From Loigolactobacillus coryniformis subsp. coryniformis KCTC 3167 = DSM 20001 (GTDB lineage: Bacteria; Bacillota; Bacilli; Lactobacillales; Lactobacillaceae): a stretch of DNA of 64,000 bases. Every line of letters begins with the position of its first letter. Within the stretch, counting starts at the first letter, position 1. The notes under the pieces are model-generated. The model did no database searches and had not been told where the DNA came from. It worked only from the letters and a program-made list of their open reading frames with translations. Below are positions 9,690 to 25,831 of this stretch, piece by piece. The stretch lies in assembly GCF_002706425.1 (NCBI RefSeq), contig NZ_CP017713.1, positions 2,480,001-2,544,000 of the forward strand, read 5' to 3'. The translations under genes and the position numbers were made by a program.

Positions 9690-11030
9690 TTATCTGAATG
9701 TTCCCATCAATAAACCGATACCAATCCAGACAATGTTTAAAAGCCAAATTGGGATAAACGCAAACTTCATGTACTGTGGTAAATCAACTTCACCATTTGT
9801 CAAGTCAGTCCCAATATATAATTGCGGCTGGGCAATTGGTGTTAACATAGCACCCATGTTCATGAACAACGTTACGATAACGACATCCGCCGGAACACCA
9901 TACGCTCGCATCAGGCCGATAACGATTGGCATTAAGACGTAATACCATGTATCGTTTGTAAAAACAAACATTAGTGGTGTACCAACAAGTCCAATAATAA
10001 TGTAGATCCAAGGTCCCATTCCAGCAGGGATAATGCCTACTAAGAACTTGACCATTGATTGCATCATACCACTAAACTCCATGACCCCAACAACAACCCC
10101 AGATAACAGGATAGCCGGCATAACGGGGAACAATGAACTGGCATATTTTTTAAGTAATTTTACTTGTAGCTTCTGATCGTGAAAATTAATTTCTAAGGCA
10201 ATGACTAACCCTAAAGCAAATGTGTAATAAGAAGGTACATCAGGAAAAGCACAGAGACAAACAATCACAACCAAAGTTAAAGCAACATTGATCCAGAATT
10301 TTTTTGGTTGAACTAATTCAGCATCTTCTTCAAAAACATCATCGTCATCCCCGCCAGCCTTAGCAGCCGCAGCAGCATCAATGCCTAATTTCTTTAAACG
10401 TCTTGTTTCCTTGAGACCAAGAAAAACGGCAATACCAAAAATTACGACGGTCAAAACAATTTGTGGTGGGAACAATTTAGCAAATAAATAATTAGTGCCG
10501 TTATCAATCTTAGGAATTAAAGAAGCACTCCGTAACATTCTGGCACTCCACGGAACATCGAAGGTGTTAATGATACCTAACGAAGTTAAGAAAACTAAAA
10601 TAACAGGTTGCATTTTCATTTTCTTGTAAAACGGCAAAAGTAACGGTACTGTAATCAAATAAACAGAAGTAATACTAACATCAAGCCCAGTGATCATTGC
10701 AACAATAACCGTTAAAATCGCAAGCACAACAGGATTCATACGAACGCGACTCACAATACGCTTGACGATTCCACTAAATAATCCAGTGTCCGCCATCAAC
10801 ATGAAATAAGGCAACGAGAATAACATGATCAAGGCGACTGACGTAGTCATTGCTAGCCCCTTAGTCAGGTAGGTACCAATTTGTTTAACCGATGATCCAA
10901 TAATAATAGCTGCTACTAGAGGAATTACCGTAAAAGAAAAAATTGTGCTAACTTTTTTCTTCATTAATAAGACCGTTATTAAAATCATCATTATAAAGCC
11001 AACGATTGCTTTATAATCCATGAAACTCAC
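9690..11030 (-). CDS. CitMHS-type permease, predicted aldarate transporter
   Basis: Integral membrane protein of 446 aa with about 11-12 hydrophobic segments, resembling the CitMHS branch of the ion-transporter superfamily (citrate and other di/tricarboxylates, proton or cation coupled). Marks include VAMITGLDVSITSVYL, a proline-rich SLPYF segment and a cytoplasmic charged loop with GGDDDDVFEED near residues 226-236. It is the first gene of the aldarate cluster and faces the CdaR-type regulator. No MFS GudP/GarP transporter is present. I infer uptake of glucarate/galactarate; citrate itself is less likely, since no citrate lyase genes are near. Specificity is not provable from sequence. Confidence 0.75.
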   Translation of the reverse strand: MSFMDYKAIVGFIMMILITVLLMKKKVSTIFSFTVIPLVAAIIIGSSVKQIGTYLTKGLAMTTSVALIMLFSLPYFMLMADTGLFSGIVKRIVSRVRMNPVVLAILTVIVAMITGLDVSITSVYLITVPLLLPFYKKMKMQPVILVFLTSLGIINTFDVPWSARMLRSASLIPKIDNGTNYLFAKLFPPQIVLTVVIFGIAVFLGLKETRRLKKLGIDAAAAAKAGGDDDDVFEEDAELVQPKKFWINVALTLVVIVCLCAFPDVPSYYTFALGLVIALEINFHDQKLQVKLLKKYASSLFPVMPAILLSGVVVGVMEFSGMMQSMVKFLVGIIPAGMGPWIYIIIGLVGTPLMFVFTNDTWYYVLMPIVIGLMRAYGVPADVVIVTLFMNMGAMLTPIAQPQLYIGTDLTNGEVDLPQYMKFAFIPIWLLNIVWIGIGLLMGTFR

Positions 11031-11065
11031 CCACTTTCAATATCTGTTAACTGTTTTTTGTGACA

Positions 11066-11204
11066 TGATGAACATTAAATATCACGTTTAACCTGACTCG
11101 TCTTAATAAGAATACCAATTAGTGTATCCGCATACAATGTTCATTTGAACAACTTTTTGTAATTTTTTTGTTTAAATATTTAAATTTTGCTGCTAAAATG
11201 AACA
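11066..11204. promoter_or_regulatory. Divergent control region with repeated TGAACA motifs
   Basis: TGAACA or its complement occurs at 11069-11074, 11138-11143, 11146-11151 and 11199-11204. The middle pair forms a perfect 6-2-6 palindrome TGTTCA TT TGAACA. On the minus strand the palindrome runs into TTGTAT, 17 bases before TATTCT, a plausible transporter promoter, which is where an activator would sit. Assigned to the CdaR-type protein by position only. Confidence 0.5.
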
Positions 11205-11338
11205 CATAAGTTCGTTTATATTGTGCATAACTAATCAATCATTATTAAACAAATTAAATTTAATTCTATTGTTTTAAATTGCTGGATAAGCATTCTTTCA
11301 ATAAACTAATTAATTTTTTCAGCAGGAGATGGCAAAAT

Positions 11339-12394
11339 ATGAAATTAGAATCAGAACTTGCTCAGTCAATTGTCAATAAAATGATGAGCAAAATACCCTA
11401 TAATATTAATATGATGGACGAAAATGGTTACATTATTGCTAGCGGTAGTTCCGAACGCTTAAATACATTACATGTTGGTGCACTTGACGCAATTCGGCAA
11501 AAAAAAACATTGATCATGGAGCGCTCTCACGGGGAAAATGGTCAACCAGGTGTCAATATGCCTGTGCATTTTAACAAAAACATTATTGGCGTTATCGGTA
11601 TCACTGGTGAACCAAAAGAAGTAGTTCCCCTAGCTTCACTACTCAGTACAGCCACTGAATTATTACTTAATCAAAGCTACGCTAATCAACAAAAATTAAT
11701 TAGTGAGACTTATTTTAATCGTTTTTTATATCAATGGGTGCAAGTTAAAAATGCCTTAGAAAAAAATCAATCATTATTGATTGACGCACAAAAACTAAAA
11801 ATTGATATTTTTCGTAATCGCTATGCAATCGTAATCAAAGGTCGCCATCTATCTAATTTTCCTGTTGATACTTCTGATTTTAAGCTTCTGATTGCTTCCA
11901 ATAATTTGATCATTCTGACTGAATACGTTGGTAATATTGAAAAATACAAGCATAGTTGTCAAAAACATAAATTAGACATTGGCGTTGGTCAAAACACGAC
12001 CAGAATTGGCATATCGGTTGCCGAAGCACAAAAAGTTATTGAACTTAGGCATATCCTACACAACAGCGAATTCAAGTATTATAAACAGGTTCGTTTGATT
12101 GATAAATTATTATCCAGTAATCTGCCACTTGATCCATTGATTAAACGCTTTGCCAGCATTAATCAAACCACAGCTGGCCAAGAGTTATTACAAACATTAA
12201 ATGCATTTATCGAAAACAATGGCAATATATCAGAAACTTCAGCTTTTTTACACATTCACCGTAATACGCTGAATTATCGGCTTAAAAAGATCAAAGATGA
12301 CTTACAACTAGATCCGCATAATTATCACGATTTATTTCATCTGTATATTGGATCACTCTATTTTGCCAAGTTTGTATATGAACAAGGGAAATGA
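11339..12394 (+). CDS. cdaR: CdaR-family carbohydrate diacid regulator
   Basis: Transcriptional regulator of 351 aa. The N-terminal half (about residues 3-135, starting LESELAQSIVNKMM and including NMMDENGYIIASG and ITGEP) matches the sugar-diacid recognition domain. The C-terminal part carries the PucR-type helix-turn-helix with NGNISETSAFLHIHRNTLNYRLKKI. In E. coli CdaR senses glucarate, galactarate or glycerate and activates the gud/gar genes. It is transcribed away from the aldarate operon, the standard layout. I take the ATG at 11339, which has AGGAGA at 11324-11329; a longer frame from a TTG at 11279 has no ribosome-binding site. Confidence 0.92.
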   Translation: MKLESELAQSIVNKMMSKIPYNINMMDENGYIIASGSSERLNTLHVGALDAIRQKKTLIMERSHGENGQPGVNMPVHFNKNIIGVIGITGEPKEVVPLASLLSTATELLLNQSYANQQKLISETYFNRFLYQWVQVKNALEKNQSLLIDAQKLKIDIFRNRYAIVIKGRHLSNFPVDTSDFKLLIASNNLIILTEYVGNIEKYKHSCQKHKLDIGVGQNTTRIGISVAEAQKVIELRHILHNSEFKYYKQVRLIDKLLSSNLPLDPLIKRFASINQTTAGQELLQTLNAFIENNGNISETSAFLHIHRNTLNYRLKKIKDDLQLDPHNYHDLFHLYIGSLYFAKFVYEQGK

Positions 12395-12498: not shown

Positions 12499-13477
12499 GC
12501 GTGGTGCTAGTTTGTAACATTTAGAAATTTAACAAAAAAGTCCAACCCAGTTAGACTCATAAGTGACAAAACTTAAAAGGAGTAATAACTGTGTTGAACC
12601 ACCTCAAGTTTAAGCAAAATCGTCACGAATTACAAGTTAGTTTCCATTACTTTTACCAGTTATGTTCATTGCTTTATCAGCGTTATTGTCCGCGTAGCGT
12701 CATTGAGCGGCGCAACGTTGAACATACTAAAATTACTGATATTAAACTTTTAGCTTTACTGTGCTTACAAGTCACACTGGGAATTCAATCGCAACGCCGC
12801 TTCTATTATCTGATGGCAGCGTTTATGCCGCGGCAAATGGTGGTATCACGTTCACGTTTCAACCGCCGCGCGCAACAATTACTGGCAGTAGTCAATGCCA
12901 TTCGCTCAGGTATCACTAAGGATTATGCTCATTCGGGCGACCTAGCGATTATCGACAGTTTACCCAACCCACTATGTGCCAAAGTTCGTAATTTCAGAGT
13001 TAGAATTTTTGCTGGGAAGGCCAACATTGGCTATAATGCCACCAAGAAAATGCCATTTTATGGGTTTAAAACCCACATGGTCGTCACGGCTAATGGCTAT
13101 ATTCTGAATTATGTGATCACGGCAGCCTCAGTTCATGATGCTAAGGTAGCGCCTGAGCTAATTAGCGGTTGTCCTTGTCCCAATATTTTGGCCGATGTTG
13201 GTTATGTTGGGAAAAAACTCAAGACCAGTTTTAGGGCCCTAGGCTATAACTTATGGACGCCTTATCGTTCTAATATGAAAGGTGCTAAACAGCATAATAA
13301 GCGTCAACTCAAGGCGTTACGGCGGACAATAGAGTCACGCTTTTCAATTTTAGCCCAGCAATTTGGGATTGAAACCAATCTCACCCGTAGTCTATTTGGT
13401 TTTCAATTAAAGATTGAATTGACGATATTGGTATACAATTTAGGCTTTTTTGATTTTATGACGAACTAGCACCACGC
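12499..13477 (+). mobile_element. IS982-family element, intact copy
   Basis: About 979 bp bounded by inverted repeats GCGTGGTGCTAGTTTGT (left) and its near-complement ACGAACTAGCACCACGC (right). It holds one transposase gene. A second, frameshifted copy in the same orientation lies at 38067-39044. Flanking target duplications are not clear. Confidence 0.88.
12591..13469 (+). CDS. IS982-family transposase
   Basis: DDE transposase of 292 aa that cuts and joins the IS ends. The acidic triad is visible in IIDSLPNP (first Asp), ILADVGYVGKK (second Asp) and RRTIESRFS (Glu); the GYNATKKMPFYGFKTHMV stretch is characteristic of IS982. GTG start with AAAGGAG 8 bases upstream. Full length, no frameshift, so probably active. 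Confidence 0.92.
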   Translation: MLNHLKFKQNRHELQVSFHYFYQLCSLLYQRYCPRSVIERRNVEHTKITDIKLLALLCLQVTLGIQSQRRFYYLMAAFMPRQMVVSRSRFNRRAQQLLAVVNAIRSGITKDYAHSGDLAIIDSLPNPLCAKVRNFRVRIFAGKANIGYNATKKMPFYGFKTHMVVTANGYILNYVITAASVHDAKVAPELISGCPCPNILADVGYVGKKLKTSFRALGYNLWTPYRSNMKGAKQHNKRQLKALRRTIESRFSILAQQFGIETNLTRSLFGFQLKIELTILVYNLGFFDFMTN

Positions 13478-13526
13478 ATTATAAATATATATAGAAATTT
13501 TGTAATTCCGTTTTATTTATAGAAGA

Positions 13527-14354
13527 TTAGCTAAGGTATATCTTTCGCAAACTTGCAATATTCTTATCAGACACTTTCAAGTACTCGCGCAGATAATAAT
13601 TAATTCCTCCCCATTGAGAATTGATATAATTGATAGCGCTTTGTAAATAAGCTACATGCACGGTAAGTCGATCTCGAACATTCTTAATAACATTTTCATT
13701 TGCCTGAGCTTCATAAAATTTATTAATTCGGCTGTTCACTCGTTTTAAAATGAATTGATTAGTCAATAAATAATCATTAATAATTGTTTTATGAGATACA
13801 CCCAAGGCTGATAATATTAAATAAGTAGCAAAACCTGTTCTATCTTTTCCAGCACTACAGTGGAAAAGTAATGCTTGGTTGTCTAGATCATTCGCCAATA
13901 ATAATTTAAAAAACTGCTGATAAGCTCGTTGAGCAGAAGAAGATATCACTAATTTTTTATAAACACTTAGCATTCGACTGTATCCAACATTATCTGGCTT
14001 GTTTTTAAAATACATAATGACTTTACTTACTGAATCCTCATAAGCATCCTTAACAATATTAGTATCGTTTGATTCCGGCATTTCATCAAAAACCGGAATT
14101 CTATAAGTTATCGCATCATTAGGAATTATATCTGGCTTAGTACTTATTTCACTGTTAGTCCGGAAATCAAGAATATATCGTACACCGTATTCCTGTAGAA
14201 AGTTGAGTTCGTCTTCAGCTAATTTATCTAGTGCCCCTGCACGGATTAACTTGTGTTTTTTTACTTTCTTACCATCCATAGTAAAATAACCGCCTAATTC
14301 CCTAAAATTATAGCCGTTACGAATTTGTAAACTTTGATTTTCCTTTTCAAACAT
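13527..14354 (-). CDS. Tyrosine-phosphatase-type protein (Y_phosphatase3 family)
   Basis: Protein of 275 aa with the cysteine phosphatase P-loop FHCSAGKDRTG in its middle, an N-terminal NFRELGGY segment and RAGALDKLAEDE, as in the bacterial tyrosine/serine phosphatases of the LipA/PtpB type. The Cys and Arg of CX5R are both present. I use the ATG at 14354, with AAGGGGGG upstream; a frame ten codons longer would begin inside the preceding terminator. It is the distal gene of the PTS/Ula-like cluster, behind a terminator, so it is expressed by read-through or alone. Substrates in this family range from phosphotyrosine to phosphoinositides. A role on sugar phosphates would be speculation. Confidence 0.85.
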   Translation of the reverse strand: MFEKENQSLQIRNGYNFRELGGYFTMDGKKVKKHKLIRAGALDKLAEDELNFLQEYGVRYILDFRTNSEISTKPDIIPNDAITYRIPVFDEMPESNDTNIVKDAYEDSVSKVIMYFKNKPDNVGYSRMLSVYKKLVISSSAQRAYQQFFKLLLANDLDNQALLFHCSAGKDRTGFATYLILSALGVSHKTIINDYLLTNQFILKRVNSRINKFYEAQANENVIKNVRDRLTVHVAYLQSAINYINSQWGGINYYLREYLKVSDKNIASLRKIYLS

Positions 14355-14372
14355 AACTAAAATTCCCCCCTT

Positions 14373-14408
14373 AAAAAAAGCCACTCTTAGTTGATAAAAG
14401 AGTGACTT
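14373..14408 (-). terminator. Terminator between ulaF-like gene and phosphatase
   Basis: On the minus strand AAGTCACTCTT pairs with AAGAGTGGCTT followed by TTTTT. The ribosome-binding site of the phosphatase begins immediately after the T-run. Confidence 0.8.
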
Positions 14409-14426
14409 AATATTTATATACGTTTG

Positions 14427-15152
14427 TTACTTTTTAGCAAACTGTATACGTCGTTGTTTATTTTGCCCATAATAAGCATTTTTCCCATGTTTACGATTAT
14501 AGTGTTTATCTAGTAAATACTGCGGAACCTCAATATTTGCATGAGTGAGTGTTAATGCATGATAATCCATCTCTGCTACAACTTCTAATACTTTAGCATT
14601 GTAGACTGCCTTATCTGGTGTAGATCCCCATGTGAAGGGACCGTGTTGTGATACCAAAACACCCGGAACGGCCTCAGGATCAATATTATGATCCTGAAAT
14701 GTTTTTACAATAACTTTTCCAGTATCTTCTTCATAAGCATCTTGAATTTCCGTTTCTGTTAAGGGTTCTGACACAGGAATATCACCGTAAAAGGTATCTG
14801 CGGCTGTTGTATTAAGCGCCGGTATGTCCATGTTGGCCGAGGCAAACGCAACTGCCCAGGGTGAATGTGTATGCACAATCCCACCAATCTTAGGAAACTT
14901 ATTATAAAGTACTGTATGGGTAGGGGTATCACTTGAGGGATTCATTTTTCCTTCAACAACCTCTCCTTTTAAATTGACAACAACCATATCTTCAGGCTCT
15001 AGATTCTCATAAGCGACACCGGATGGTTTGATTACAAACAATCCCTGCCTACGATCAATACCACTAACATTTCCCCATGTAAATGTAACTAAATTCAGTT
15101 TGGGCAACTGCATATTAGCCTCATAAACTTGTTTTTTTAATGACTCAAGCAT
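14427..15152 (-). CDS. ulaF: L-ribulose-5-phosphate 4-epimerase
   Basis: Class II aldolase-fold zinc epimerase of 241 aa converting L-ribulose 5-phosphate to D-xylulose 5-phosphate. Zinc-ligand motif HTHSPWAVAFA and a later QHGPFTWG are present, with TWGNVSG and KPSG near the N terminus for phosphate binding, and TPTHTVLY. AraD, UlaF and SgbE cannot be told apart by motifs, but UlaE and UlaD next to it point to the ascorbate-type role. It overlaps the end of the ulaE-like gene by 8 bases, with AGGAGG in front, so the two are translationally coupled. The product enters the phosphoketolase or transketolase pathway. Confidence 0.9.
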   Translation of the reverse strand: MLESLKKQVYEANMQLPKLNLVTFTWGNVSGIDRRQGLFVIKPSGVAYENLEPEDMVVVNLKGEVVEGKMNPSSDTPTHTVLYNKFPKIGGIVHTHSPWAVAFASANMDIPALNTTAADTFYGDIPVSEPLTETEIQDAYEEDTGKVIVKTFQDHNIDPEAVPGVLVSQHGPFTWGSTPDKAVYNAKVLEVVAEMDYHALTLTHANIEVPQYLLDKHYNRKHGKNAYYGQNKQRRIQFAKK

Positions 15153-16017
15153 GAATTTCCTCCTGTTCTATTCCAATATCTGCAAAAATACCATCGAAAA
15201 ATGCCTTGGCCTTTTTAACGGCTGTAATTGGATCATTGGTCTTCTCCGTCCACATTTCAATAGTGAAAGCTCCATTATAATTCAATCGTTTTAACGTTCG
15301 TAAACATCCAACAAAATCAACAGTTCCTTCTCCAAAAGGAACATCCCGGAATTGCCCTTTGCTAATTTTTGTTACCGGCTTCGTATCCTTTAAATGCACC
15401 GAAACAATACTATCAACGCCACGTTCTAATTCTTGACCAACATCATTTTCTGGCCAGGCCGTTAGATTGCCAAGATCCGGATAAGTCTGTAGCCACGGGC
15501 TATGAATTTGTGTTTTAATATAATTTACTTTACTTAAGGAATTCAGAAAGGAGTCATCCATTGTCTCTATATCAAGCATAACCTCTTTACTAGCAGCATA
15601 TGCTACACCTTTCATTAGGTTTTCAATAAAATATTCGCGTGATTCAATAGATTTTGCCTCATAGTAAACATCATATCCTGCCAATTGAATATTACGAATG
15701 CCAATATTACTGGCCAAATCAATAGCCTGATAAAGCATTGTTAATGACCTTTTACGTATAGTGGGGTCAGTTGAGCCTAATGGATAACGCCTATGACCAC
15801 TCAACATCAAAGTATGAACTCGAACACCCGTTTGCCAAATAGCATCACGTAGATCTGCTTGTTGTTTTTTAGTCCAATTAAGTCGTGCCAAACGCTCATC
15901 ACTTTCATCTATCGAAAATTCTAAGAAGTTAAAACCTAATTTTTTAACTAATTGTAAACAATCAACCCATGATTTTGTTTTTGGTAATGCTTTTTCATAA
16001 ATACCAAGTGAATTCAT
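15145..16017 (-). CDS. ulaE: L-xylulose-5-phosphate 3-epimerase
   Basis: TIM-barrel (AP endonuclease family 2 fold) epimerase of 290 aa converting L-xylulose 5-phosphate to L-ribulose 5-phosphate. UlaE hallmarks are LGIYEKALP at the N terminus, SGHRRYPLGS, IQLAGYDVYYE, DLGNLTAWP, VHLKDTKP and VPFGEGTVDF. Length is typical. It lies 54 bases after the ulaD-like gene and overlaps ulaF. Together the three enzymes take 3-keto-L-gulonate 6-phosphate to D-xylulose 5-phosphate. Confidence 0.93.
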   Translation of the reverse strand: MNSLGIYEKALPKTKSWVDCLQLVKKLGFNFLEFSIDESDERLARLNWTKKQQADLRDAIWQTGVRVHTLMLSGHRRYPLGSTDPTIRKRSLTMLYQAIDLASNIGIRNIQLAGYDVYYEAKSIESREYFIENLMKGVAYAASKEVMLDIETMDDSFLNSLSKVNYIKTQIHSPWLQTYPDLGNLTAWPENDVGQELERGVDSIVSVHLKDTKPVTKISKGQFRDVPFGEGTVDFVGCLRTLKRLNYNGAFTIEMWTEKTNDPITAVKKAKAFFDGIFADIGIEQEEIHA

Positions 16018-16071
16018 TCTGGCTACCTTCTATTCTCTAAATCTCTTCAATCACAAACAGATTACCTCTCA

Positions 16072-16710
16072 TTAATTCCAATACTTCTTGATCTCGTCTT
16101 TCAACTTTTTTGCCGCAATATAAGGATCATCGGCCCCAGTAATTGCACGTCCAGCAATAAAAGTAAATACAGGAACACCTTTAAATAACTTGATTGTGTC
16201 CACGTTTAAGCCGCCAGTAACGGAAACCTTAAAACCTAGATCAATTAGCTGTTTAACAACTTTAAGATCTTTAGGCCCCCATACTTCGCCAGCAAGTAAA
16301 GCATCACGGCTTTGATGATATACGGCCTGATCAATACCAGCCTTACGCCACGCTTTCGCCTGTTCCCAAGTCCAATCACCATAAAGTTCAACTTGTAAAT
16401 CAGACAATTCTTTTTTAGCGGATTTCATGGTTGGAATCGTTGCAGCACAAATCACTGTCATCCAATCTGCGCCAGCCTCACGACTATTTCTAGCAACTGT
16501 CCCACCCGCATCTGCACATTTAGTATCTGATACAACAATTTTATCAGGAAACATTTTACGCAAACACTTAATTGCAACATTACCTACTTGTAATTGTAAA
16601 ATGGTACCCGCCTCAACAACATCTACAGCCGGCCCTGCCTGCTTCACAATTCCCAGTGCATCTTCTAAAGTATTTTGATCTAAAGCAATTTGTAAATTTG
16701 GTACATTCAT
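16072..16710 (-). CDS. ulaD: 3-keto-L-gulonate-6-phosphate decarboxylase
   Basis: Orotidine-monophosphate-decarboxylase-fold enzyme of 212 aa. It decarboxylates 3-keto-L-gulonate 6-phosphate to L-xylulose 5-phosphate. Active-site residues fit: E33 in VEAGT, D62, K64 and D67 in SDTKCADAG, and H132 and R135 in YHQSRDA. The last motif with GDWTWEQAKAWR distinguishes this enzyme from hexulose-6-phosphate synthase. It follows the PTS IIC gene by 56 bases. Its presence fixes the operon's metabolic entry point into the lower ascorbate pathway. Confidence 0.93.
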   Translation of the reverse strand: MNVPNLQIALDQNTLEDALGIVKQAGPAVDVVEAGTILQLQVGNVAIKCLRKMFPDKIVVSDTKCADAGGTVARNSREAGADWMTVICAATIPTMKSAKKELSDLQVELYGDWTWEQAKAWRKAGIDQAVYHQSRDALLAGEVWGPKDLKVVKQLIDLGFKVSVTGGLNVDTIKLFKGVPVFTFIAGRAITGADDPYIAAKKLKDEIKKYWN

Positions 16711-16766
16711 ATAAATGATCTCCAGTCTTTTAATTTATAGAATCCGGCAACTATAAGTGTACAATA

Positions 16767-17846
16767 CTAACCAAAATCAATATTAATATCTAAATCATGA
16801 ACTTTTTCCTGCTTTTGGTCTTCTTTAATTTTTGGTTTAATAATTGATAAAATAATCCCAGTAATACTTGCACCAATTAATAGTGCTGCCAAATAAAGTA
16901 ATGGGTTGCTAGCAACTGGTATTGTAAAAATACCCCCTGATAATAGTGGAACTGTGACTCCCCAAGTCAGAATAAGTCCATGAGCAGTTCCCGATCCAAG
17001 TACAACCGCAGGAACTACTCTGACTGGGTCCTCGAAAGCAAATGGTAGTGCCCCTTCAGTCACCTGACACATTGACATAATAATAGCAGCCTTAGCATTT
17101 TCACGATCTGCTTTTGTGTATTTTTTAGGCGAGAACAATAGTACAGAAAGTGCAATACCTAATGGAGGAGCCATTGCAGCAACATTTTTACCTGCTGCTG
17201 GTCCCCACACACCAGAAGTCGCAAAAGCGGTTACAATTGCAAACGCAACTTTATTAACAGGACCACCCATATCAAAACCAGTCATACTACCGAGCATAAA
17301 ACCAAGTAAAAACTTTGATCCATGATTCATTCCAAGAAAGAAAGTAACCGCAACCTTCGTCAGGGCCGCTAGTGGTGGACCGATAACATACATTACTATT
17401 AAAGTTTCTAATATACCCCCGACTAATGGAATAATAACCAACGGAATCATCGTCTTTATAGTTTTAGGAACATTTAGATTATTAAAAAATACAACAACTA
17501 TACCTGCTAAAAGACCACAAAGAATACCACCAATAAAACTAGCATTAACAACTGTTGATAAATATCCACCTAATAATCCAGGTGCAATTGCAGACTTTCC
17601 TGCAATTGAATAACCAATACCAGCCGCCAATACTGCAATCATCATCGCTGAACCAGCACTACCTGCTTGTAATAAATAGTATCCGACCGTTCCTTTGACA
17701 TCAGTATTTCCAATAATACGCCCGATAGCAGTACAAAATCCCATCATGATAATTACAGGAATCATAAACGACAGGCCGCTTAGAAAGTGACGTTTTAAAG
17801 CTTGACCGGTGAAGATTTCCTTATATTGTTTTAACATCGGATTCAC
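16767..17846 (-). CDS. PTS fructose-family transporter subunit IIC
   Basis: Membrane component of 359 aa of a fructose-superfamily PTS, forming the sugar channel. Marks are RHFLSGLSFMIPVI near the N terminus, GFMLGSMTGFDMGGPVNKVAF in the middle and TEGALPFAFEDP, the conserved substrate/phosphoryl region, followed by VLGSGTAHG. About 9-10 hydrophobic segments. IIA, IIB and IIC are separate genes here. It is not related to the UlaA (ascorbate) permease, although the enzymes downstream are the Ula set, so the substrate must be a different compound that reaches the same intermediate. Confidence 0.9.
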   Translation of the reverse strand: MNPMLKQYKEIFTGQALKRHFLSGLSFMIPVIIMMGFCTAIGRIIGNTDVKGTVGYYLLQAGSAGSAMMIAVLAAGIGYSIAGKSAIAPGLLGGYLSTVVNASFIGGILCGLLAGIVVVFFNNLNVPKTIKTMIPLVIIPLVGGILETLIVMYVIGPPLAALTKVAVTFFLGMNHGSKFLLGFMLGSMTGFDMGGPVNKVAFAIVTAFATSGVWGPAAGKNVAAMAPPLGIALSVLLFSPKKYTKADRENAKAAIIMSMCQVTEGALPFAFEDPVRVVPAVVLGSGTAHGLILTWGVTVPLLSGGIFTIPVASNPLLYLAALLIGASITGIILSIIKPKIKEDQKQEKVHDLDINIDFG

Positions 17847-17873
17847 TCCTACTTTTGATAAATCAAGATAATA

Positions 17874-18191
17874 TTATTTAGCGGCTGCTAATTTTTTTTC
17901 AATAGTTTTCAACAAACTTTCAGGCGTTTGAATTGCGGTATTAGTTGGAACTTTAACTACAGGTTTACCCTCAAAACGTTCCATTCCTGTAACTGCAACA
18001 TCAGCTGCCACAATAACAACATCCGCATTCTTAATATCCTCATCTGTCAATTTATTTTCAATACCTGCACTTCCTTGAGTTTCTACGTGTCCCACAATTC
18101 CTAAATTTTTGGCAGTACTTAATAATTTTTCCCGTGCCATATAGGTGTGTGCAATACCAACTGTGCATGCTGTAATTCCAATAAAATTCAT
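17874..18191 (-). CDS. PTS fructose-family subunit IIB
   Basis: Cytosolic phosphocarrier of 105 aa. The phospho-Cys is C9 in GITACTVGIAHTYMA, the signature of fructose-type IIB. The start is the ATG at 18191, with AGGAGG 8 bases upstream; it begins one base after the IIA stop, so translation is coupled. It receives phosphate from the IIA gene product upstream and passes it to the sugar in IIC. Confidence 0.9.
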   Translation of the reverse strand: MNFIGITACTVGIAHTYMAREKLLSTAKNLGIVGHVETQGSAGIENKLTDEDIKNADVVIVAADVAVTGMERFEGKPVVKVPTNTAIQTPESLLKTIEKKLAAAK

Positions 18192-18192
18192 G

Positions 18193-18663
18193 TTACATAC
18201 CTCCTGCATTTTGTAGAATCTTTTTAAAAGAGACTATATCATTTTCACAAAGTAATTTATCCTGAACTTCTTTATGAGTTAACGCCGCTGAAAGTCGTGA
18301 TAAAATTTTAAGATGTTCAATATTTCTATCTATAGTAGGAACAACTAAAAGGAAAATCAACTTAATAGGCTGATTATCTAAACTTTCCCACACTAATCCA
18401 TCATTAGTCTTTAAAACCGCAATTGCGGCCCGATTTACTACGTCAGACTCTCCATGTGGAATTGCAATACCATTTTCCATTCCTGTTGGTCCAATTGCTT
18501 CACGTTCTTGGACTGCTTGATAGAACAGAATCTTGTCACTTACTACATTATTTTTTTCAAGTTCTTTGCAGAGCTCCTTTAGCGCCTCTTCTTTGGTTCT
18601 AGCCTGTGAATGAAGATTAATATTATTTTGAATTAAGTCGCTCACTTTATCACCAACTTTCAA
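18193..18663 (-). CDS. PTS fructose-family subunit IIA
   Basis: Cytosolic IIA component of 156 aa with the phospho-His in GIAIPHGES (about residue 70) and the surrounding EREAIGPTGMENG. It takes phosphate from HPr. The start is a TTG that overlaps the stop of the preceding membrane-protein gene (TTGA), with no clear ribosome-binding site, so it probably depends on coupling. A PRD regulator with its own EIIA-like domain begins the operon. Confidence 0.9.
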   Translation of the reverse strand: MKVGDKVSDLIQNNINLHSQARTKEEALKELCKELEKNNVVSDKILFYQAVQEREAIGPTGMENGIAIPHGESDVVNRAAIAVLKTNDGLVWESLDNQPIKLIFLLVVPTIDRNIEHLKILSRLSAALTHKEVQDKLLCENDIVSFKKILQNAGGM

Positions 18664-19022
18664 TTATTTGTTATATGCTGTTCCATGTTGACCGCACGCT
18701 TAGAACCGTCATATCTAACTAGGATGGTCAATGGGTGTGTAAGTGAATAACGATTACCTGAAATCTTCTTCACTTGTTTTTTTCTATTAATCATAAGTAA
18801 AATATCATGATTTACATATAAATACGTAAAATACAATATAAAGTAACCAATCAAGACAATTACACCCATAATTAATTGATTACTTATACATAAAACTAGA
18901 CCACCAATAATCAGTAAAATTCGTAAATAACTAATTAACGGATTCCATATATAAGCAGTACATCTCTGGTATTGCTCACGTCTATACCAATAAAAGATTT
19001 TATGCTTTCGGTTTATAGCCAC
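18660..19022 (-). CDS. Small membrane protein of unknown function
   Basis: Unrecognised protein of 120 aa. Residues about 28-70 contain two closely spaced hydrophobic segments (LRILLIIGGLVL and IMGVIVLIGYFILYFTYLYV), followed by a basic, soluble tail (NRKKQVKK). I start it at the GTG at 19022, which has AAGGA in front and overlaps the last 23 bases of the dehydrogenase gene; its stop overlaps the IIA start. A longer frame to 19160 lies wholly inside the dehydrogenase and is unlikely. Tight overlaps on both sides suggest a real operon member, perhaps an accessory to the PTS or to an upstream step. Confidence 0.6.
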   Translation of the reverse strand: MAINRKHKIFYWYRREQYQRCTAYIWNPLISYLRILLIIGGLVLCISNQLIMGVIVLIGYFILYFTYLYVNHDILLMINRKKQVKKISGNRYSLTHPLTILVRYDGSKRAVNMEQHITNN

Positions 19023-19890
19023 CCACTTCCTTTCTAAGAGAGTTAATGATACGCGCACTGAAAGTATCACTAGTCTGTGTTCTTTGCCGCATAACCAAAG
19101 ATATTCCAATCGTTGGCACTGGAATATTGTACTCAATTGCAGCTTTAACTGCATCAGCACAAGCAGAACTGGAATGGATAATCGTGTCTACGTCATCCAA
19201 ACTTGCATTTTTAGTCAAAGCATCATACATAAGGTCCATCAACCATCCCCGTATAACCGCTGATTTACTCCAGTTATGTGCAACATCTTTGAGATCATAA
19301 TCAAATGGACTTGAATGCAATAGGTCAAAGCCTTCTCCTAAAACTTGCATTTCAGAATGTAGAATTGCATTATGAATAATCTTTAAATAATGCCCGCTTC
19401 CAGATTTGCCAGTATATAATAGCCCATTTGATGCAGCAATGTCCTCCAGCAGTGGTTCAATAGCCTTATAGGCTGTATAGTCACCGCCGACCATGAAACT
19501 AGCACCATGCCTAGCACCATAAGTACCGCCTGAAGTCCCAACATCCATAAAGAGTACATCTTTTCCCTTGAATTCTTTTGCTTGTTTAACTGAATCCGTA
19601 TATTTTGAATTTCCACCATCAATAACAATATCTCGTGGAGAGAGTAAAGATTTTAATTGTTCTAAAACTGAATTAGTAATCTTACCAGCAGGTAACATTA
19701 CCCAAATAATTTTACGCGCATGTTCAGATTTTAAATCATCTAAATTAACTAATGTTTTGATTCCATCCTTTTTTGCACGTGATAATATTTCCTGATTTGT
19801 ATCAAACCCCACTACTTCATGCTTATGATCCTTCATATTTAACGCTAAATTGTATCCCATTTTTCCAAGACCAACTAAGTAAATTTTCAT
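19000..19890 (-). CDS. 6-phosphogluconate-dehydrogenase-like enzyme with altered active site
   Basis: Short-type 6PGDH homologue of 296 aa. NAD-binding GLGKMG is at 7-12, with D30 ending strand 2 (favouring NAD), GGNS at 92-95 and GTSGGTYGA at 118-126. The catalytic Lys-His-Asn are K170, H173 and N174. In normal 6PGDH the next motif is HNGIEYG; here it reads HNAILHS. The general acid Glu (sheep E190) is therefore L177, and the phosphate-binding Tyr (Y191) is H178. Loss of the acid argues that it oxidises a sugar-acid phosphate at C3 without completing decarboxylation. That fits a separate decarboxylase (UlaD) in the operon. Substrate is inferred, for example L-gulonate or L-galactonate 6-phosphate. 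Confidence 0.8.
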   Translation of the reverse strand: MKIYLVGLGKMGYNLALNMKDHKHEVVGFDTNQEILSRAKKDGIKTLVNLDDLKSEHARKIIWVMLPAGKITNSVLEQLKSLLSPRDIVIDGGNSKYTDSVKQAKEFKGKDVLFMDVGTSGGTYGARHGASFMVGGDYTAYKAIEPLLEDIAASNGLLYTGKSGSGHYLKIIHNAILHSEMQVLGEGFDLLHSSPFDYDLKDVAHNWSKSAVIRGWLMDLMYDALTKNASLDDVDTIIHSSSACADAVKAAIEYNIPVPTIGISLVMRQRTQTSDTFSARIINSLRKEVGGYKPKA

Positions 19891-19959
19891 AAACTTTATT
19901 CCATCCTTTCATATTTTGCTTATATAAATTAATATTTGATATCTCTACTGAGACTCAAG

Positions 19960-21900
19960 CTATTCAAAAAACTTGGTCATAATTCGAATAATTTCATTTG
20001 AATTATTTGAATCAATAATTTTGTTCATTATTGAAACTGAAGAAATTAATTGATTAAATTCGTGATAGACTGTATCCAACGATATTTTTTTAACATCAAG
20101 CTTACTAAAACCCATAAAGAAAACTAGCCTAACAGTTCCTTCACCCCAAGATATCCCCGTCGGATTAATCAACATTGTGATTCCAGAATGCTGAATAAAT
20201 TGACTTTCCGCATGAGGAATGGCGGTAAAATGATTTTGTAAGAGCGTTGATGCTATTTTCTCCCGATCAAGTGCAGATTTAATAACCCCTTTTGTTGCAT
20301 AGTTGCTTTCAATAAGTAGATTTCCGATTTGTTGAATTGCATCCTTTTCATTTCTTACTTGATTGCTAATCAGTATGAAATCCCTGTTAATAAAGTTCAG
20401 CAACCGACTGTGCGTTAGTTTCTTTTGAAGACGAATTTGCTCAATTTCTCTACTGAGTAGTAACCTTTCTTTTTCATCAAAAAATGGACGCATTATAATA
20501 ACTCGCTTAGTGTCTAATTCCAGTGGAATCGTACTGATAATTAAGTCTTCATCAGGAGTTTGCTCGAAAATATCGGCAACTGATAACACTCTTGTGATAT
20601 TTACGTCACCAGCAAAATAACTATTAATTCTCTGCGTTAATAATCTTGCTGTACCAATACCAGTGCTACAAACGATTACAATAGAAACCTCCAACCCCTT
20701 TGCTTGCTGCTCACGTTGTCTCTCTAGATAAGCTTGAAAGTGAAGAGCTAAGTAAGCGATCTCATTTTTATCTATAGAAACTTGAAAACTTATCTTTATT
20801 CTCTGTGCTAACTCAAAAGCCAGTTCAAAAGCTTGCGGATAAAGCTTAATAATCTCAGAAGTATACGGATTTGTTGCTTGTAACCCAACCTGAAAACGAT
20901 GAAGGGCCGGTTCTAAATGAACGATTAAATCACTAATAAGCCGTGCATCGTAATTAGTTATATTCTGCTTTAAAAAACTATTTAAATCAGATAGTTCGTT
21001 GCTTGCTGATGTTGCACCATGAAAATTTTCAGGCTTAACAACCCCTTGCTTTGCAGCAACAATGTGAATATTTAAATATTCACACTCAGTCTGAGGAATG
21101 CGTATTTTGAATTCCTTTTCCAACATTCTAGTAAGAATTAAAGTTTCATGATAAATATTTCGCCTATTACTATCACCAATTTTTAAAAACTCATTATTTT
21201 TAATACGAATAGTTGAAATACAAATATGAATTAGCAATGACTGATACTGATACTCAGTAAATGTAATTTGAGTCTCAGCCTGTAATCGATTCAAAATCTT
21301 CTGAACCTGTTTCAACGTGTTCATATCAATAAAATCATTAAATCCAGAAGGAAGCGTTACAATACGAGAATCTGCCTTAACTGATTCCATCCAATAATGC
21401 GAAATGATTTTACTAGCAGCATCCCGCTTTTTTCGTTCGTTCCCCCTGATTGCAACACCATTTCTACCGTTTTGCATGATTAAATCAATTTTATTTAAAC
21501 TAGCTTTTATATTTTTAATATCACGATCCATAGTGCTTCGACTAACATAAAATTGCATACATAAGTTATCTAAAGTTATCTCTTTTTCATTCATCAAAAG
21601 AGATAACATGATGAGATTTCTCCGTCCTTCCGTATCAAGGCTCAGATACTGTGTATCACCTGACAATAATGTATTAAGCGCGGAAAGATCTCCTTCAAAA
21701 TAAATACCAACATTACGTTTACGGATTAATTTAACACGTCCTTTTGGAAGAAGTTCAGATACTGTATCTAAATCAGCAACAATACGTTTTCTAGATACAT
21801 TTAAGAAGGACATTAACTCTGGATAATGAACAAGTCCATGGACATAAATATAAGCTATTGTGCGCTGAACATCCTTACTAAACTTATCCTTCTTGGGCAT
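19960..21900 (-). CDS. PRD-containing transcriptional activator (MtlR/LicR type)
   Basis: Regulator of 646 aa. Two N-terminal winged-helix domains (about 10-60 and 90-140, with YVSRSTMDRDIKNI) are followed by two PRD domains carrying His sites (LIHICIS near 225; NIHIV and VHLEPALHR further on), an EIIB-like domain with a Cys in IVCSTGIGTARLL (about 413), and a C-terminal EIIA-like domain with FTAIPHAES. Such proteins are tuned by phosphorylation from HPr and the cognate IIA/IIB and activate the downstream PTS operon. It is the first gene of the cluster and lies 69 bases before the dehydrogenase. An IS30 element sits only 83 bases upstream of its start and may have displaced its promoter. Confidence 0.9.
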   Translation of the reverse strand: MPKKDKFSKDVQRTIAYIYVHGLVHYPELMSFLNVSRKRIVADLDTVSELLPKGRVKLIRKRNVGIYFEGDLSALNTLLSGDTQYLSLDTEGRRNLIMLSLLMNEKEITLDNLCMQFYVSRSTMDRDIKNIKASLNKIDLIMQNGRNGVAIRGNERKKRDAASKIISHYWMESVKADSRIVTLPSGFNDFIDMNTLKQVQKILNRLQAETQITFTEYQYQSLLIHICISTIRIKNNEFLKIGDSNRRNIYHETLILTRMLEKEFKIRIPQTECEYLNIHIVAAKQGVVKPENFHGATSASNELSDLNSFLKQNITNYDARLISDLIVHLEPALHRFQVGLQATNPYTSEIIKLYPQAFELAFELAQRIKISFQVSIDKNEIAYLALHFQAYLERQREQQAKGLEVSIVIVCSTGIGTARLLTQRINSYFAGDVNITRVLSVADIFEQTPDEDLIISTIPLELDTKRVIIMRPFFDEKERLLLSREIEQIRLQKKLTHSRLLNFINRDFILISNQVRNEKDAIQQIGNLLIESNYATKGVIKSALDREKIASTLLQNHFTAIPHAESQFIQHSGITMLINPTGISWGEGTVRLVFFMGFSKLDVKKISLDTVYHEFNQLISSVSIMNKIIDSNNSNEIIRIMTKFFE

Positions 21901-21983: not shown

Positions 21984-23220
21984 CCCAAATTGCAAGAACA
22001 AATTAGCCACACGATAAATCCTATTAAATCAGTATTTTCATTAATATTCATATTTTATGGACTTAACTTAACCGGCGGAAGCAGCGGAGAAAAGCTCTTT
22101 GGGTGTTTGATAGCCAGTTTGCTGGCGCGGTAAATTGTTTAGCTTTGACTCAACTGCTTGGATATCATGAGGACCCAAAATATCCATGGATAGACCCTTG
22201 GGTACGTCGCGGCGGATCATTCGATTATGCGCTTCGTTAGTCCCACGCTCAGAGGAACGATATGGATGGGCATAATAAAGGTCAGCGACACCGGTAAGTA
22301 CAGCGCCAACTTCCGAGAACTCAGCGCCATTATCGGCAGTAACTGACTTCATGATTGATCCGTATTCTTGACAGATCTTGGCCAGCTCATAGTTGACTGA
22401 ATCGGCATCACGACCATCGATCAAACGTAGAATTTGGCAGCGGGATTGACGCTCGATCAGCGTTAAGATCACACTCTCTTGACCGTTGCGCTTGCCCACC
22501 ACGGTGTCCAATTCGAAATGGCCGAACTCTTGGCGCTGGTCGATACTTTTAGGCCGTTCATCAATACTCCGTCCGGCCAGACGCTTGTGCTTGATCGAGT
22601 GATGATGTTTAGCACGGTGGCGCGTTTTTTCGAGTAGATCAAGATTACGGACTTCAAGTAACTGGGCATCAATATAGTGGTATAGCGTCTTGGTCGAGAC
22701 CATCTCCTCAGGTTGATATAAGCCTTCAAGTTTGGCCCGTCCTACTGCTGCATCAGGCGACCAACCATCTTGACGCAAATGAGTCGTAAAATAGTCGATA
22801 AAATCAGCGACACCGACGAGTTTCAAAGGTCGATGACAGTGGGCTCGATTAGCTTCGTACTTAGCTTGTGCTGTTTCTGGTGAGTATACAGCGTAATATT
22901 GGCGTTGACCATTCACTTTTTTTACTTGGTCGATCTCGCCGCGGCACAATTCATTATTAATTGTTTGATGACAAACATTAAGCGCTCTGGCAATTGCACG
23001 ATTGGAATAGCCTTGGCTGTGCAGCGTAGCAATTCTGCCTCGTTCAAACGAAGTTAGGTGCTGACCTTTTTTTCTGACTGTGGTATTCTGTTCTTGCATC
23101 AAGACAATAACCTCTTTCATTGTTTGTGTAGGAACATCAATGATAACAGAGATTTGTCTTGGTGTTTTTTATTTTATCAATTAGCTAAAAGTATTTGGCT
23201 AACTTGATTATAAAACGCGC
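21984..23220 (-). mobile_element. IS30-family element, copy 1
   Basis: About 1.24 kb. The ends carry related inverted repeats (CAAATTAGCCA near the 21984 end, CAAGTTAGCCA near the 23220 end). It is flanked by a perfect 14-base direct repeat, GGACTTATATAAAT, at 21970-21983 and 23221-23234. The transposase end and about 85 bases beyond it match the copy at 62.3-63.5 kb. Confidence 0.8.
22068..23099 (-). CDS. IS30-family transposase
   Basis: DDE transposase of 343 aa from the preferred ATG at 23099 (350 aa from an upstream ATG at 23120 that has no ribosome-binding site). It has an N-terminal helix-turn-helix with SNRAIARALNVCHQTINNEL, then the catalytic domain with FELDTVVGK (first Asp), TADNGAEF (second Asp) and SSERGTNEAHNRMIRR (Glu). 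The frame is intact. Near-identical to the copy at 62408-63436. Confidence 0.92.
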   Translation of the reverse strand: MQEQNTTVRKKGQHLTSFERGRIATLHSQGYSNRAIARALNVCHQTINNELCRGEIDQVKKVNGQRQYYAVYSPETAQAKYEANRAHCHRPLKLVGVADFIDYFTTHLRQDGWSPDAAVGRAKLEGLYQPEEMVSTKTLYHYIDAQLLEVRNLDLLEKTRHRAKHHHSIKHKRLAGRSIDERPKSIDQRQEFGHFELDTVVGKRNGQESVILTLIERQSRCQILRLIDGRDADSVNYELAKICQEYGSIMKSVTADNGAEFSEVGAVLTGVADLYYAHPYRSSERGTNEAHNRMIRRDVPKGLSMDILGPHDIQAVESKLNNLPRQQTGYQTPKELFSAASAG

Positions 23221-23234
23221 GGACTTATATAAAT

Positions 23235-23583
23235 ACCATAAATCCAATCATAATTAGTTTTTTGAACCTTATTAGCATTACGCATGAATTATAATATATT
23301 ACTTATTTGTAAACGGCGGTTATTTTTACACCGCCCTTGACACTTATTCACTAAAAACCATTTTATTAATACAATTAAAGGGTCCATTCAATATAAACCC
23401 AAATTTACATAATATTAGCCTGAATTATTCACCATAAGTTCTCCAAGTACAGTGTCACCCCGGTATCATGGGCGGTACTGTGTTTTTTATTTTTCACCTT
23501 TTTAGTGCAGAAAAAGAACCTCCGATTTGGTATAGTTGATTCACCACAAGTCAGCTATCCACCCAAAGAAAGAGGTCCTTCTC
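23235..23583. other. Intergenic stretch between IS30 and the IS1380 remnant
   Basis: No gene. It holds a hairpin GGCGGT...ACCGCC at 23313-23335 directly followed by TTGACA, possibly a promoter -35. A second stem-loop (ACAGTG...CACTGT-like, with CCC/GGG) at about 23450-23480, followed by TTTTTTATTTTT, probably belongs to the IS1380 left end. The first part may be the original upstream region of the PRD regulator, now separated by IS30. Confidence 0.45.
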
Positions 23584-24211
23584 ATGGCAACTTTACCGGA
23601 AAAACGAGTTAATTTCAATCCTAAATTACATATTTCGCACACTGGTGGTGAACTTTCCACTGATGCTGGGCTAGTGTTGGTCAAAGAATTAATGGCGCAA
23701 CTCAATTTCACGACCTTAGCGTATCAATTAGTCCATTTTGATGACCAGCGCCATTACGCTCGTTACAGCAACGTTAGTCTACTAGAGCAGGTCGTGCTGC
23801 AGTTGATCGCCGGTTACCCGGCCGATCTAGCTGCCACCAGTTTGCGCAATGACCCCACATTTAAATTACTATTGGCACAACCGCAATTGGCCTCACAACC
23901 GCCGTTATCCCGTTTTTGGCAACGCTGTGACGAGCAGACCATCACCTCATTACAAACGTTGAATCAAGCATTGCTTGACCAAGCGTGGACTGGCGCCAAG
24001 CAACAACAGCTGATCCTCGATATTGACTCGACTCACGCCGATACTCATGGTCATCAGGAAAAAACGGCCTTTAATGCGCATTACGGTACCACGGGTTACC
24101 ATCCGCTGGTCGCTTTTGACGGGCAAACGGGCCACTGTTTAAAGGCTCAATTGCGCCCAGGTAATGTTTATACCAGTACGGATATTGCCCCCTTTATCAC
24201 ACCACTACTAC
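23584..24211 (+). pseudogene. IS1380-family transposase, 5' fragment
   Basis: N-terminal part (about 209 codons) of a transposase that normally has over 400 residues. Motifs HTGGELSTDAGLVLVKEL and LDIDSTHADTHG (first catalytic Asp) identify the IS1380 family. The start is the ATG at 23584, with AGAGG upstream. It stops where IS66 begins at 24212, and the missing 3' part is not found on the other side of IS66, so an adjacent deletion has taken place. Confidence 0.85.
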
Positions 24212-24312
24212 GTAAGCACCCAATAAACGACCGTAATCAAAAGCAGCGCTACTGATCCGAAACTTTTTGGTTCGAATCAGTAGCGCTGTTTAGTTTTAAA
24301 TTAGCCAATGGG

Positions 24313-25782
24313 CTACGCTTGTTGATCACGCCAAACCTTTTTGTCCGGCACTTGTCGCCATGGCAAACAAGCTACCAGTTCTTCCTCAGTTGGAAAAACT
24401 GGTAGTTGCCCTAATTGATCAAGCAGGTATTCGAGATACTGCCGGGGATCCAAACCATTAGCTTTCGCGGTTTCAATCAAGGTCATCCAAATCGCGTTAG
24501 CCTGTGCCCCTGCAGGACTGGTGGCGAAAAGCCAATTCTTGCGCCCAATCACGAAAGACTTCACATTTCGTTCAGTGGCGTTATTGCTTAGATCAATTTC
24601 ACCGTAATCGAGCACACGATCAAGTGCAGACCGTTGGTTTTGGGCATAGGTCAAAGCACGACCTAAACGTGATTTCGAGGTAGCCACCGCTTGATCACAC
24701 CACTGCCAAAATTGCTTGATCACTGGCTTTAATTGTTCCTGGCGCAGTTCTTTGCGCTTGGTCGGCGTTAGATCACGCCAGCCCCGTTCTAGGTGAAACA
24801 TTTGATCAAGCAATTTTAAGGGTGCCGTTATCGTCGGTTGTCCCTTGATCTTGCAGGCATCATCGAAGAATTTTCGCCGCACATGCGCCCAACAACCGAC
24901 CCGCGTCACCGTCGCGCCCAGTAGATTGTAACCAGAATAACCGTCATATTGTAGGACACCCGTAAAATCACCATAAAGTTGTTGGGCAGTTTTGCCGGCA
25001 CGATTGTCGCTATAGGTATAATAGACAACTTGATGCGCAGCTAAGCGAATACTACGAGCCACCCAGATATAAGACTTACTTTGTGCAGTTTTACCCACTT
25101 CACGCAAGACTTGAAATGGCGTCTCATCACCTTGCAGGTAAGGTTGCGTTAATAATTGTTCGTGCAGTAACGTATACAGCGGTTGAACAATCGTCGCTGC
25201 TTTGATCACCCAATTCGTCATGGTCGTTTCACTTAAAATCAAACCAGCCCGCCGCCAGGCTTTCATTTGACGATAAAGCGGTGTCCCTAAGGCATATTTT
25301 TGGTACAACAACTCAGCGACTAACGATGAGGTCGCTAAACTATGGGGGATCAGCGCCTGCGGCGCAATCCCCTGATATAAATGTGATACACCATCATCGG
25401 TTTCACAAACGGCACATTTATACGTTTGTTCAAAGATCTGTTCGCAATAGAGGCGACCAGGAATTTGATGCACGACTTCACGCACAAAGTGCTTGCCCAT
25501 TGGTATCAGTTGATGACCATGATCGCAATTCAAATTTTCCCGGCGAATCACGGTAGTCTCAATTGGTAGATTGGGATCAACTGATTCGCAACGCCTACGC
25601 TTTGGCTTACGGACAACGGTCGTTACTGTCGTTTCGCTTTGGTTCCCAGTTTGCTCTGGGTCGGTAAAAACCCCACTGTCATCTGCCAACAGGGATAACT
25701 GGTTAGGATCAGTTATTTTTTCCGAACGCTTGCCAAAAAGTTGACGCTGAAAAAAAGCGAGTTCTTCCGTCAAAGTTTGCAC
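24313..25782 (-). pseudogene. IS66 TnpC transposase, 3' part
   Basis: C-terminal 489 codons of the IS66 transposase: QRQLFGKRSEKI, a zinc-finger-like CDHGH...C region, then the DDE domain with YLQGDETPFQVL (Asp), LQYDGYSGYN (Asp) and DLSNNATERNVKSFVIGRKNW (Glu). The N-terminal residues are separated from it by the IS3 element and lie at 27462-27558, so the gene is broken. Confidence 0.88.
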
Positions 25783-25831
25783 TAGGCCCTGTCAAGTTGA
25801 CAAATGAAATAATATAAAGTTGAATCTGTTT

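Follow-up and report, generated by a model that had tools for sequence, protein, structure and literature searches.

The L-ascorbate utilisation operon (ula), reportedly described by Yew and Gerlt in 2002, combines the permease UlaA/UlaB and the lactonase UlaG with a trunk of three enzymes, UlaD, UlaE and UlaF, that converts 3-keto-L-gulonate 6-phosphate to D-xylulose 5-phosphate. The yiaK-S (sgb) genes of Escherichia coli, which serve a 2,3-diketo-L-gulonate route, enter this trunk through the same intermediate by means of a reductase (YiaK) and a kinase. We analysed a stretch of 64,000 nucleotides of Loigolactobacillus coryniformis subsp. coryniformis KCTC 3167 = DSM 20001 (contig NZ_CP017713.1, positions 2,480,001 to 2,544,000; hereafter the window), in which an operon at 14427-21900 shares the UlaD-UlaE-UlaF trunk with ula. 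In this operon, a fructose-type phosphotransferase system (PTS), a homologue of 6-phosphogluconate dehydrogenase (6PGDH) and a PRD-type regulator accompany the trunk, whereas ula has UlaA/UlaB and UlaG. In silico evidence supports the view that the 6PGDH homologue gives the operon a new way into the known ascorbate trunk. This dehydrogenase probably feeds UlaD: an imported 6-phospho-L-hexonate would be oxidised at C3 to 3-keto-L-gulonate 6-phosphate, which UlaD would decarboxylate. Unlike yiaK-S, the operon would thus reach the intermediate with a PTS and a C3 dehydrogenase. The mammalian glucuronate-xylulose pathway likewise converts L-gulonate through 3-keto-L-gulonate to L-xylulose, but its L-gulonate 3-dehydrogenase (EC 1.1.1.45) belongs to another enzyme family and its intermediates are unphosphorylated, whereas the steps proposed here would run on 6-phosphates. 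Pathways for tetronates (threonate, erythronate) resemble the present proposal in that a β-hydroxyacid dehydrogenase from the same superfamily precedes a separate decarboxylase, but they act on four-carbon acids, with a kinase after the oxidation and a class II aldolase-type decarboxylase.

Genes were assigned to families by the profile cut-offs of Pfam and NCBIfam. The operon contains the following genes, separated by -23 to +69 nucleotides:

19960-21900, minus strand: PRD-type regulator with PTS domains (Pfam PRD, Mga, HTH_11 and PTS_EIIA_2)
19000-19890, minus strand: short 6PGDH homologue (TIGR00872, 317 bits against a cut-off of 297.2; PF03446 and PF00393)
18660-19022, minus strand: small membrane protein of about 120 amino acids (120-codon frame with a GTG start at 19022; no family above cut-off)
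18193-18663, minus strand: PTS fructose-family IIA (TIGR00848, 129.1 bits against 103.5)
17874-18209, minus strand: PTS fructose-family IIB (TIGR00829, 105.3 bits against 76.85)
16767-17846, minus strand: PTS fructose-family IIC permease (TIGR01427, 229 bits against 157.55)
16072-16710, minus strand: UlaD, 3-keto-L-gulonate-6-phosphate decarboxylase (NF009832, 317.5 bits against 250)
15145-16017, minus strand: UlaE-type L-xylulose-5-phosphate (L-ribulose-5-phosphate) 3-epimerase (TIGR00542, 354.9 bits against 272.15; NF009689, 419.6 bits, above cut-off)
14427-15152, minus strand: UlaF/AraD-type L-ribulose-5-phosphate 4-epimerase (NF006047, 388.2 bits against 257)

The first-pass annotation, made from the letters of the window, had named eight of these genes as adjacent and co-directional. 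All eight lie side by side on the minus strand with their families over cut-off, and the description stands apart from the gene at 18660-19022, a ninth member that had been overlooked. IIA, IIB and IIC each exceeded the cut-off of an NCBIfam fructose-family subfamily, while the Pfam search gave no match for IIC. IIA retains IPHGES, which we take to contain the phosphorylatable histidine, and IIB retains what is presumably the corresponding cysteine in ACTVGIAHT. No phosphofructokinase-type gene was found among the operon genes scanned with Pfam and NCBIfam. UlaD missed the stricter UlaD model NF009831 (232.5 against 294), as did UlaF the stricter araD model TIGR00760 (337.4 against 389.1). The PRD protein is a probable substrate-controlled activator of the operon.

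To describe the catalytic centre, we use "the dehydrogenase" for the 6PGDH-like protein of 19000-19890 and its orthologues. It has the family and domains of the short, NAD-dependent Gnd proteins (TIGR00872) and retains their Lys183, His186, Asn187 and Ser128-Gly-Gly (K170, H173 and N174 in its own numbering; invariant in the alignments), but has lost Glu190, Tyr191 and the G-x-G-x-W-T motif. According to the matched passages of PMC8900737, Lys183 is the base of 6PGDH catalysis, Glu190 is the general acid, working after CO2 has left, and Tyr191 is close to the 6-phosphate. Where 6PGDH has K-M-V-H-N-G-I-E-Y, the aligned dehydrogenase reads K-I-I-H-N-A-I-L-H. The changes of Glu190 to Leu and Tyr191 to His were present in all nine orthologues (the window and loci L046-L053). 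Ordinary Gnds had Glu-Tyr at these positions in 28 of 28 sequences examined, out of many more matches, and Leu-His in none; L015, which lies outside the search pattern, reads HNGVEY. G-x-G-x-W-T was gone from the nine orthologues, and all 27 short Gnds have it; the aligned part of the long Gnd L002 did not show it. At the position of Glu190, four other PF03446 dehydrogenases of the source genome have V, V, I and V, so the change in the dehydrogenase would run towards plain dehydrogenases. One of these four was assigned by family as tartronate semialdehyde reductase; L006, among the other three, also has no Ser-Gly-Gly.

In the tree, the nine dehydrogenases formed one clade with a support of 100/100 and a long stem. 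We predict that this lineage is an L-hexonate-6-phosphate 3-dehydrogenase that does not complete a decarboxylation of its own, and the acidic residue following the second strand suggests that it prefers NAD. The structure model of the dehydrogenase, built with seven sequences, was poor in the C-terminal half (predicted local distance difference test, pLDDT, below 50 for residues 155-296). Lys260 was considered as a lost phosphate contact and dropped; by the numbering of the long enzyme, this residue would already differ in short Gnds.

The UlaD of the operon appears to be intact. Aligned to the solved structures 1kv8 and 3exr, it keeps the catalytic motifs of 3-keto-L-gulonate-6-phosphate decarboxylase (KGPDC), which we take to be Asp11, Glu33, Asp62-Lys64-Asp67, Glu112, His136, Arg139 and Thr169. 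It is the sole UlaD match in the source genome (a single contig of 2.95 Mb). Among 301 Lactobacillaceae genomes, UlaD was found in 30 (31 places) and the dehydrogenase in five. UlaA (22) or UlaG (5) lies within 1.5 kb of UlaD at 27 of the 31 places, and the remaining four are dehydrogenase operons, namely that of the window and three loci with the IIC and IIB of the module described below. UlaD was over threshold in 4/5 genomes with the dehydrogenase versus 26/296 others (Fisher p = 3.8e-4, only a guide as the genomes are related). In the fifth genome, pieces of UlaD were found where a contig ends and next to an N.

The import half of ula is missing from the operon. No UlaA/UlaB permease stands beside its UlaD, and the fructose-type IIC and IIB take their place. 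The UlaG model NF008688 gave no match in the source genome; in a control on 14 genomes, it was over cut-off in one and gave some match in six, including E. coli. The first-pass annotation had listed both UlaA and UlaG as absent. This is borne out for UlaG, and for UlaA as far as the operon is concerned; for the genome as a whole it is less sure, since the sole EIIC-GAT permease (32085-33368), which belongs to another cluster 10 kb from the operon, passes NF006919, "PTS ascorbate transporter subunit IIC" (479.5 against 380). This EIIC scored higher with the generic PTS IIC model NF009553 (559.7) and shares 27% identity with the UlaA of a ula operon in a relative.

A search for the same gene order in other genomes, which had been suggested as a check, recovered the order dehydrogenase-small protein-IIA-IIB-IIC (hereafter the module) in eight further loci from several genera. 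Because this order recurs, the arrangement of the operon is not due to chance. A PRD gene accompanies the module in seven of the eight and, with the window included, occupies the same place in 8/9 loci. The ninth locus, L052, on a 6.6-kb contig of an Alkalibaculum metagenome-assembled genome (MAG), has a divergent DeoR-type gene instead; there the module is followed by a 355-amino-acid protein and UlaG (583 bits against a cut-off of 306). The 355-amino-acid protein (4306-5370) had no family above cut-off (weak FG-GAP). Searches with a strict threshold recovered only the source genome and one orthologue already in the set from 395 Lactobacillales, only the source genome and one ordinary Gnd (49%) from 398 genomes of the phylum, and, from 291 genomes of the class to which the Alkalibaculum MAG belongs, only the MAG itself. 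Within the sampled genomes the module is rare, and these samples do not tell where else it occurs.

We further compared the UlaD partners of the module. The six UlaDs of dehydrogenase operons did not group together on the UlaD tree, which calls for three or more changes of partner; a tree with only one change was not among the 200 bootstrap trees. One of these UlaDs is identical to an ascorbate-operon UlaD, and the others are kin of ascorbate-operon UlaDs. Separate recruitments of UlaD and the dehydrogenase would be the simplest reading of this tree. On a Lacticaseibacillus paracasei plasmid (L046), the UlaD, UlaE and UlaF blocks share 99.1, 96.1 and 96.2% nucleotide identity with the ascorbate operon of genome G231, whose order is UlaG, UlaA, UlaB, UlaD, DeoR-type regulator, UlaE and UlaF. 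UlaG, UlaA, UlaB and a DeoR gene of the G231 type were not found in the 18.9-kb plasmid stretch, and the module stands before UlaD, in place of the import half. In L. timonensis, the module comes after UlaE-UlaF, and a second small contig ends inside UlaD with UlaB, UlaA and UlaG beyond; we infer that the two contigs belong together. A loss of UlaD in this species was considered and dropped, the gene being cut by the contig end and an N. On an L. salivarius megaplasmid (L047; one of nine plasmid records with equal score, the other eight being left out), UlaE-UlaF lie ahead of the module and UlaD after it. In the same locus (12795-16278), UlaD is followed by genes for a HAD hydrolase, fructose-6-phosphate aldolase and transketolase, which suggests a different fate of the pentulose. 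The repeated joining of the module to the same UlaD-UlaE-UlaF trunk would be best explained if the dehydrogenase makes the substrate of UlaD.

Taken along these lines, the operon would be a catabolic side route into the ascorbate trunk. The fructose-family PTS would take up an L-hexonate (or its 1,4-lactone) and phosphorylate O6, and the PRD protein would sense this compound. Sequence and evolution suggest that the dehydrogenase then oxidises C3 of the 6-phospho-L-hexonate with NAD and, having lost the acid that completes the oxidative decarboxylation of 6PGDH, hands on 3-keto-L-gulonate 6-phosphate. UlaD would convert the keto acid to L-xylulose 5-phosphate, a step established for its family, and UlaE and UlaF would yield D-xylulose 5-phosphate, where phosphoketolase can take over. 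Phosphoketolase was found in 6/7 genomes searched and is absent from the Alkalibaculum MAG. The extra NADH could be spent on making ethanol; in both loci scanned for one (L042, L044), a gene of the bifunctional aldehyde/alcohol dehydrogenase type is found close to the module. That a modified 6PGDH makes the UlaD substrate had been proposed in the first-pass annotation, and the proposal gains support from the loss of Glu190 in all orthologues, the changes of pairing and the plasmid-borne ula block joined to the module.

Since UlaE is needed only for L-xylulose 5-phosphate, the hexonate should be configured at C4 and C5 as in L-gulonate, L-galactonate, L-idonate and L-talonate. C2 ceases to be a centre on decarboxylation, and at this carbon ascorbate-operon UlaDs normally meet the configuration of L-gulonate. 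Set against 6-phosphogluconate, L-gulonate agrees at C3 and C4 and L-idonate at C2, C3 and C4, and L-galactonate is inverted at C3. From these structures, L-gulonate would rank first, because C3 and C4 match 6-phosphogluconate and C2 is right for the UlaD substrate, followed by L-galactonate and then L-idonate. The earlier suggestion of L-gulonate or L-galactonate thus seems reasonable on both counts, with L-gulonate the better candidate, and would be widened by L-idonate and the lactones. The UlaG of the Alkalibaculum contig keeps 1,4-lactones in play.

Several observations weigh against this pathway and lend themselves to other explanations. The dehydrogenase exceeds the curated cut-off of TIGR00872, a model of decarboxylating Gnd, and its deposited plasmid copies carry the name of decarboxylating gnd. 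Because Glu190 acts after CO2 loss in the account given in passages of PMC8900737, its loss alone is no proof that the keto acid leaves the enzyme with CO2 still on; as a matter of general chemistry, 3-keto acids can shed CO2 without the acid. The dehydrogenase might therefore form L-xylulose 5-phosphate directly from the 6-phospho-L-hexonate, with UlaD left over or serving another source. We consider this quite unlikely, as Glu190 is gone in every orthologue and the pairing with an intact UlaD arose repeatedly. UlaD, UlaE and UlaF could also serve another source because an EIIC that passes the ascorbate-PTS model lies 10 kb away. In that case, the dehydrogenase and UlaD would act on unrelated substrates within one operon, such as a PTS sugar resembling fructose on the one hand and ascorbate entering through the neighbouring permease on the other. 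The ula2-like cluster at 28584-35726 speaks for such a division, and S. pneumoniae ula2 responds to ascorbate according to passages of PMC4324149. Since UlaG had no match in the source genome, the usual route for opening ascorbate 6-phosphate would be closed, and the dehydrogenase and UlaD have been paired repeatedly; we regard this explanation as very unlikely. Some of the three partnership changes on the UlaD tree may be losses rather than gains. In L. laiwuensis, the module has no UlaD-UlaE-UlaF of its own, and an ordinary ula operon with UlaG is on another contig. The genome of the Alkalibaculum MAG gave no UlaD match, with UlaG in the operon, on a short contig that is possibly mis-binned. 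In Lactiplantibacillus pingfangensis (L049, 7995-9916), the PRD regulator is split over two overlapping frames by sequencing error or decay.

The substrate, too, cannot be read from the sequence, and this includes import of fructose by the PTS. Fructose-type PTSs often phosphorylate O1, and the promiscuity of KGPDC weakens the stereochemical deduction. Two other proposals for the substrate are variants of the pathway favoured here, in which the dehydrogenase feeds UlaD, and their odds overlap with it. The imported compound may be a vitamin C precursor in lactone form (L-gulono- or L-galactono-1,4-lactone), which UlaG would open after phosphorylation where present and which elsewhere would open before uptake or without an enzyme. 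The order in the Alkalibaculum contig, which ends with UlaG, agrees with this, but it is a single small MAG contig whose UlaG may serve ascorbate, and the source genome has no UlaG match; we hold the lactone to be unlikely. L-idonate (or L-talonate) would differ from 3-keto-L-gulonate at C2, a difference that vanishes as C2 becomes CH2OH on decarboxylation. By established stereochemistry, 6-phospho-L-idonate is the C5 epimer of 6-phosphogluconate, so that C5 alone sets it apart from the ancestral substrate, and the altered Tyr191 is a residue of the phosphate end. L-idonate occurs in grape and fungal metabolism (PMC6827314, PMC4870679). Nevertheless, the UlaD partners are kin of ascorbate-operon UlaDs, one of them identical, and those meet the L-gulonate configuration at C2, which makes L-idonate an unlikely substrate.

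The ninth gene of the operon starts with GTG inside the dehydrogenase gene and overlaps its end by 23 nucleotides. In 9/9 loci, window included, the dehydrogenase and IIA genes flank a gene for such a small protein, and the relatives in the eight other loci are 30-50% identical over about 100 residues. The same 23-nucleotide GTG overlap was present in the L. paracasei plasmid and the Alkalibaculum MAG, while in L048 no usual start codon was found near the N terminus and the start is uncertain. No family in Pfam or NCBIfam was above cut-off for the protein. In its model (mean pLDDT 74.8), two long helices come after a hairpin, and no PDB entry matched it at E<=0.001. A search of 281 Lactobacillales gave, beyond the source genome, one marginal match (E 9.4e-4, two stops). 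As a speculation, the small membrane protein may be a membrane partner of both the dehydrogenase and the PTS permease and hold the former at the latter.

The operon has a G+C content of 0.36, compared with 0.41 for the window, and is flanked by transposase genes at 12591-13469 and 22068-23120, the second recognised by an HTH_38 domain only. Transposase-type genes around the operon (12591-13469, 22068-26725 and 30680-32053) include DDE_Tnp_1, HTH_38, DDE_Tnp_1_4, IS66, rve integrase and IS701 types, and would be in keeping with a mobile sugar-acid island. At 13527-14384, on the same strand and 42 nucleotides downstream of UlaF, lies a gene of the Y_phosphatase3 family, which tblastn did not find near the module in L041-L044. 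The region 2242-12394 contains a sugar diacid (glucarate/galactarate) operon with two glucarate dehydratase-type genes, a galactarate dehydratase-type gene, a DapA-like aldolase, tartronate semialdehyde reductase, glycerate kinase, a transporter of the CitMHS type and a divergent regulator carrying a sugar diacid recognition domain; the dehydratases were below curated equivalog cut-offs. The ula2-like cluster of 28584-35726 comprises a PRD-EIIA regulator, the ascorbate/galactitol-family EIIC, a IIB-like frame at about 33455-33748 (by eye) and a transketolase, which an IS701 transposase gene on the other strand separates from the rest. The cluster is comparable to S. pneumoniae ula2 as described in passages of PMC4324149. 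A scan for the cre-site pattern gave one match in the window, away from the operon and at chance level, and promoter and terminator scans also remained at chance level.

A full-text literature search, covering titles and the beginnings of abstracts among the matches listed (in several cases the best 12-20 of up to 579 papers), with subscription journals mostly outside, found no description of this gene set; ulaD and phosphogluconate dehydrogenase co-occurred only in a ferroptosis review. In L. rhamnosus, the ulaE region has an upstream DeoR-family gene, and "phosphogluconate dehydrogenase" does not occur in the main text of the paper that describes it (PMC3928093).

More broadly, we tentatively suggest, as a possibility short of even odds, that the operon is a phosphorylated bacterial counterpart of the mammalian L-gulonate-xylulose pathway that salvages vitamin C precursors (L-gulonate, L-galactonate or their lactones). 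A 6PGDH lineage would have turned into an L-hexonate-6-phosphate 3-dehydrogenase without decarboxylation, held at the PTS permease by the small membrane protein, and the module would have spread partly on plasmids, able to replace the import half of ascorbate operons. The dehydrogenase should not be filed as a decarboxylating 6PGDH; if the proposed pathway is true, an annotation error would be corrected, in which deposited plasmid copies are named decarboxylating gnd. The plasmid copies are material for genetic tests. The pathway would also represent a natural split of a bifunctional enzyme, for oxidation and decarboxylation, into two by the loss of one catalytic acid, and lactic acid bacteria would gain a fermentation route for sugar acids of the L-series that belong to the vitamin C metabolism of plants and animals.

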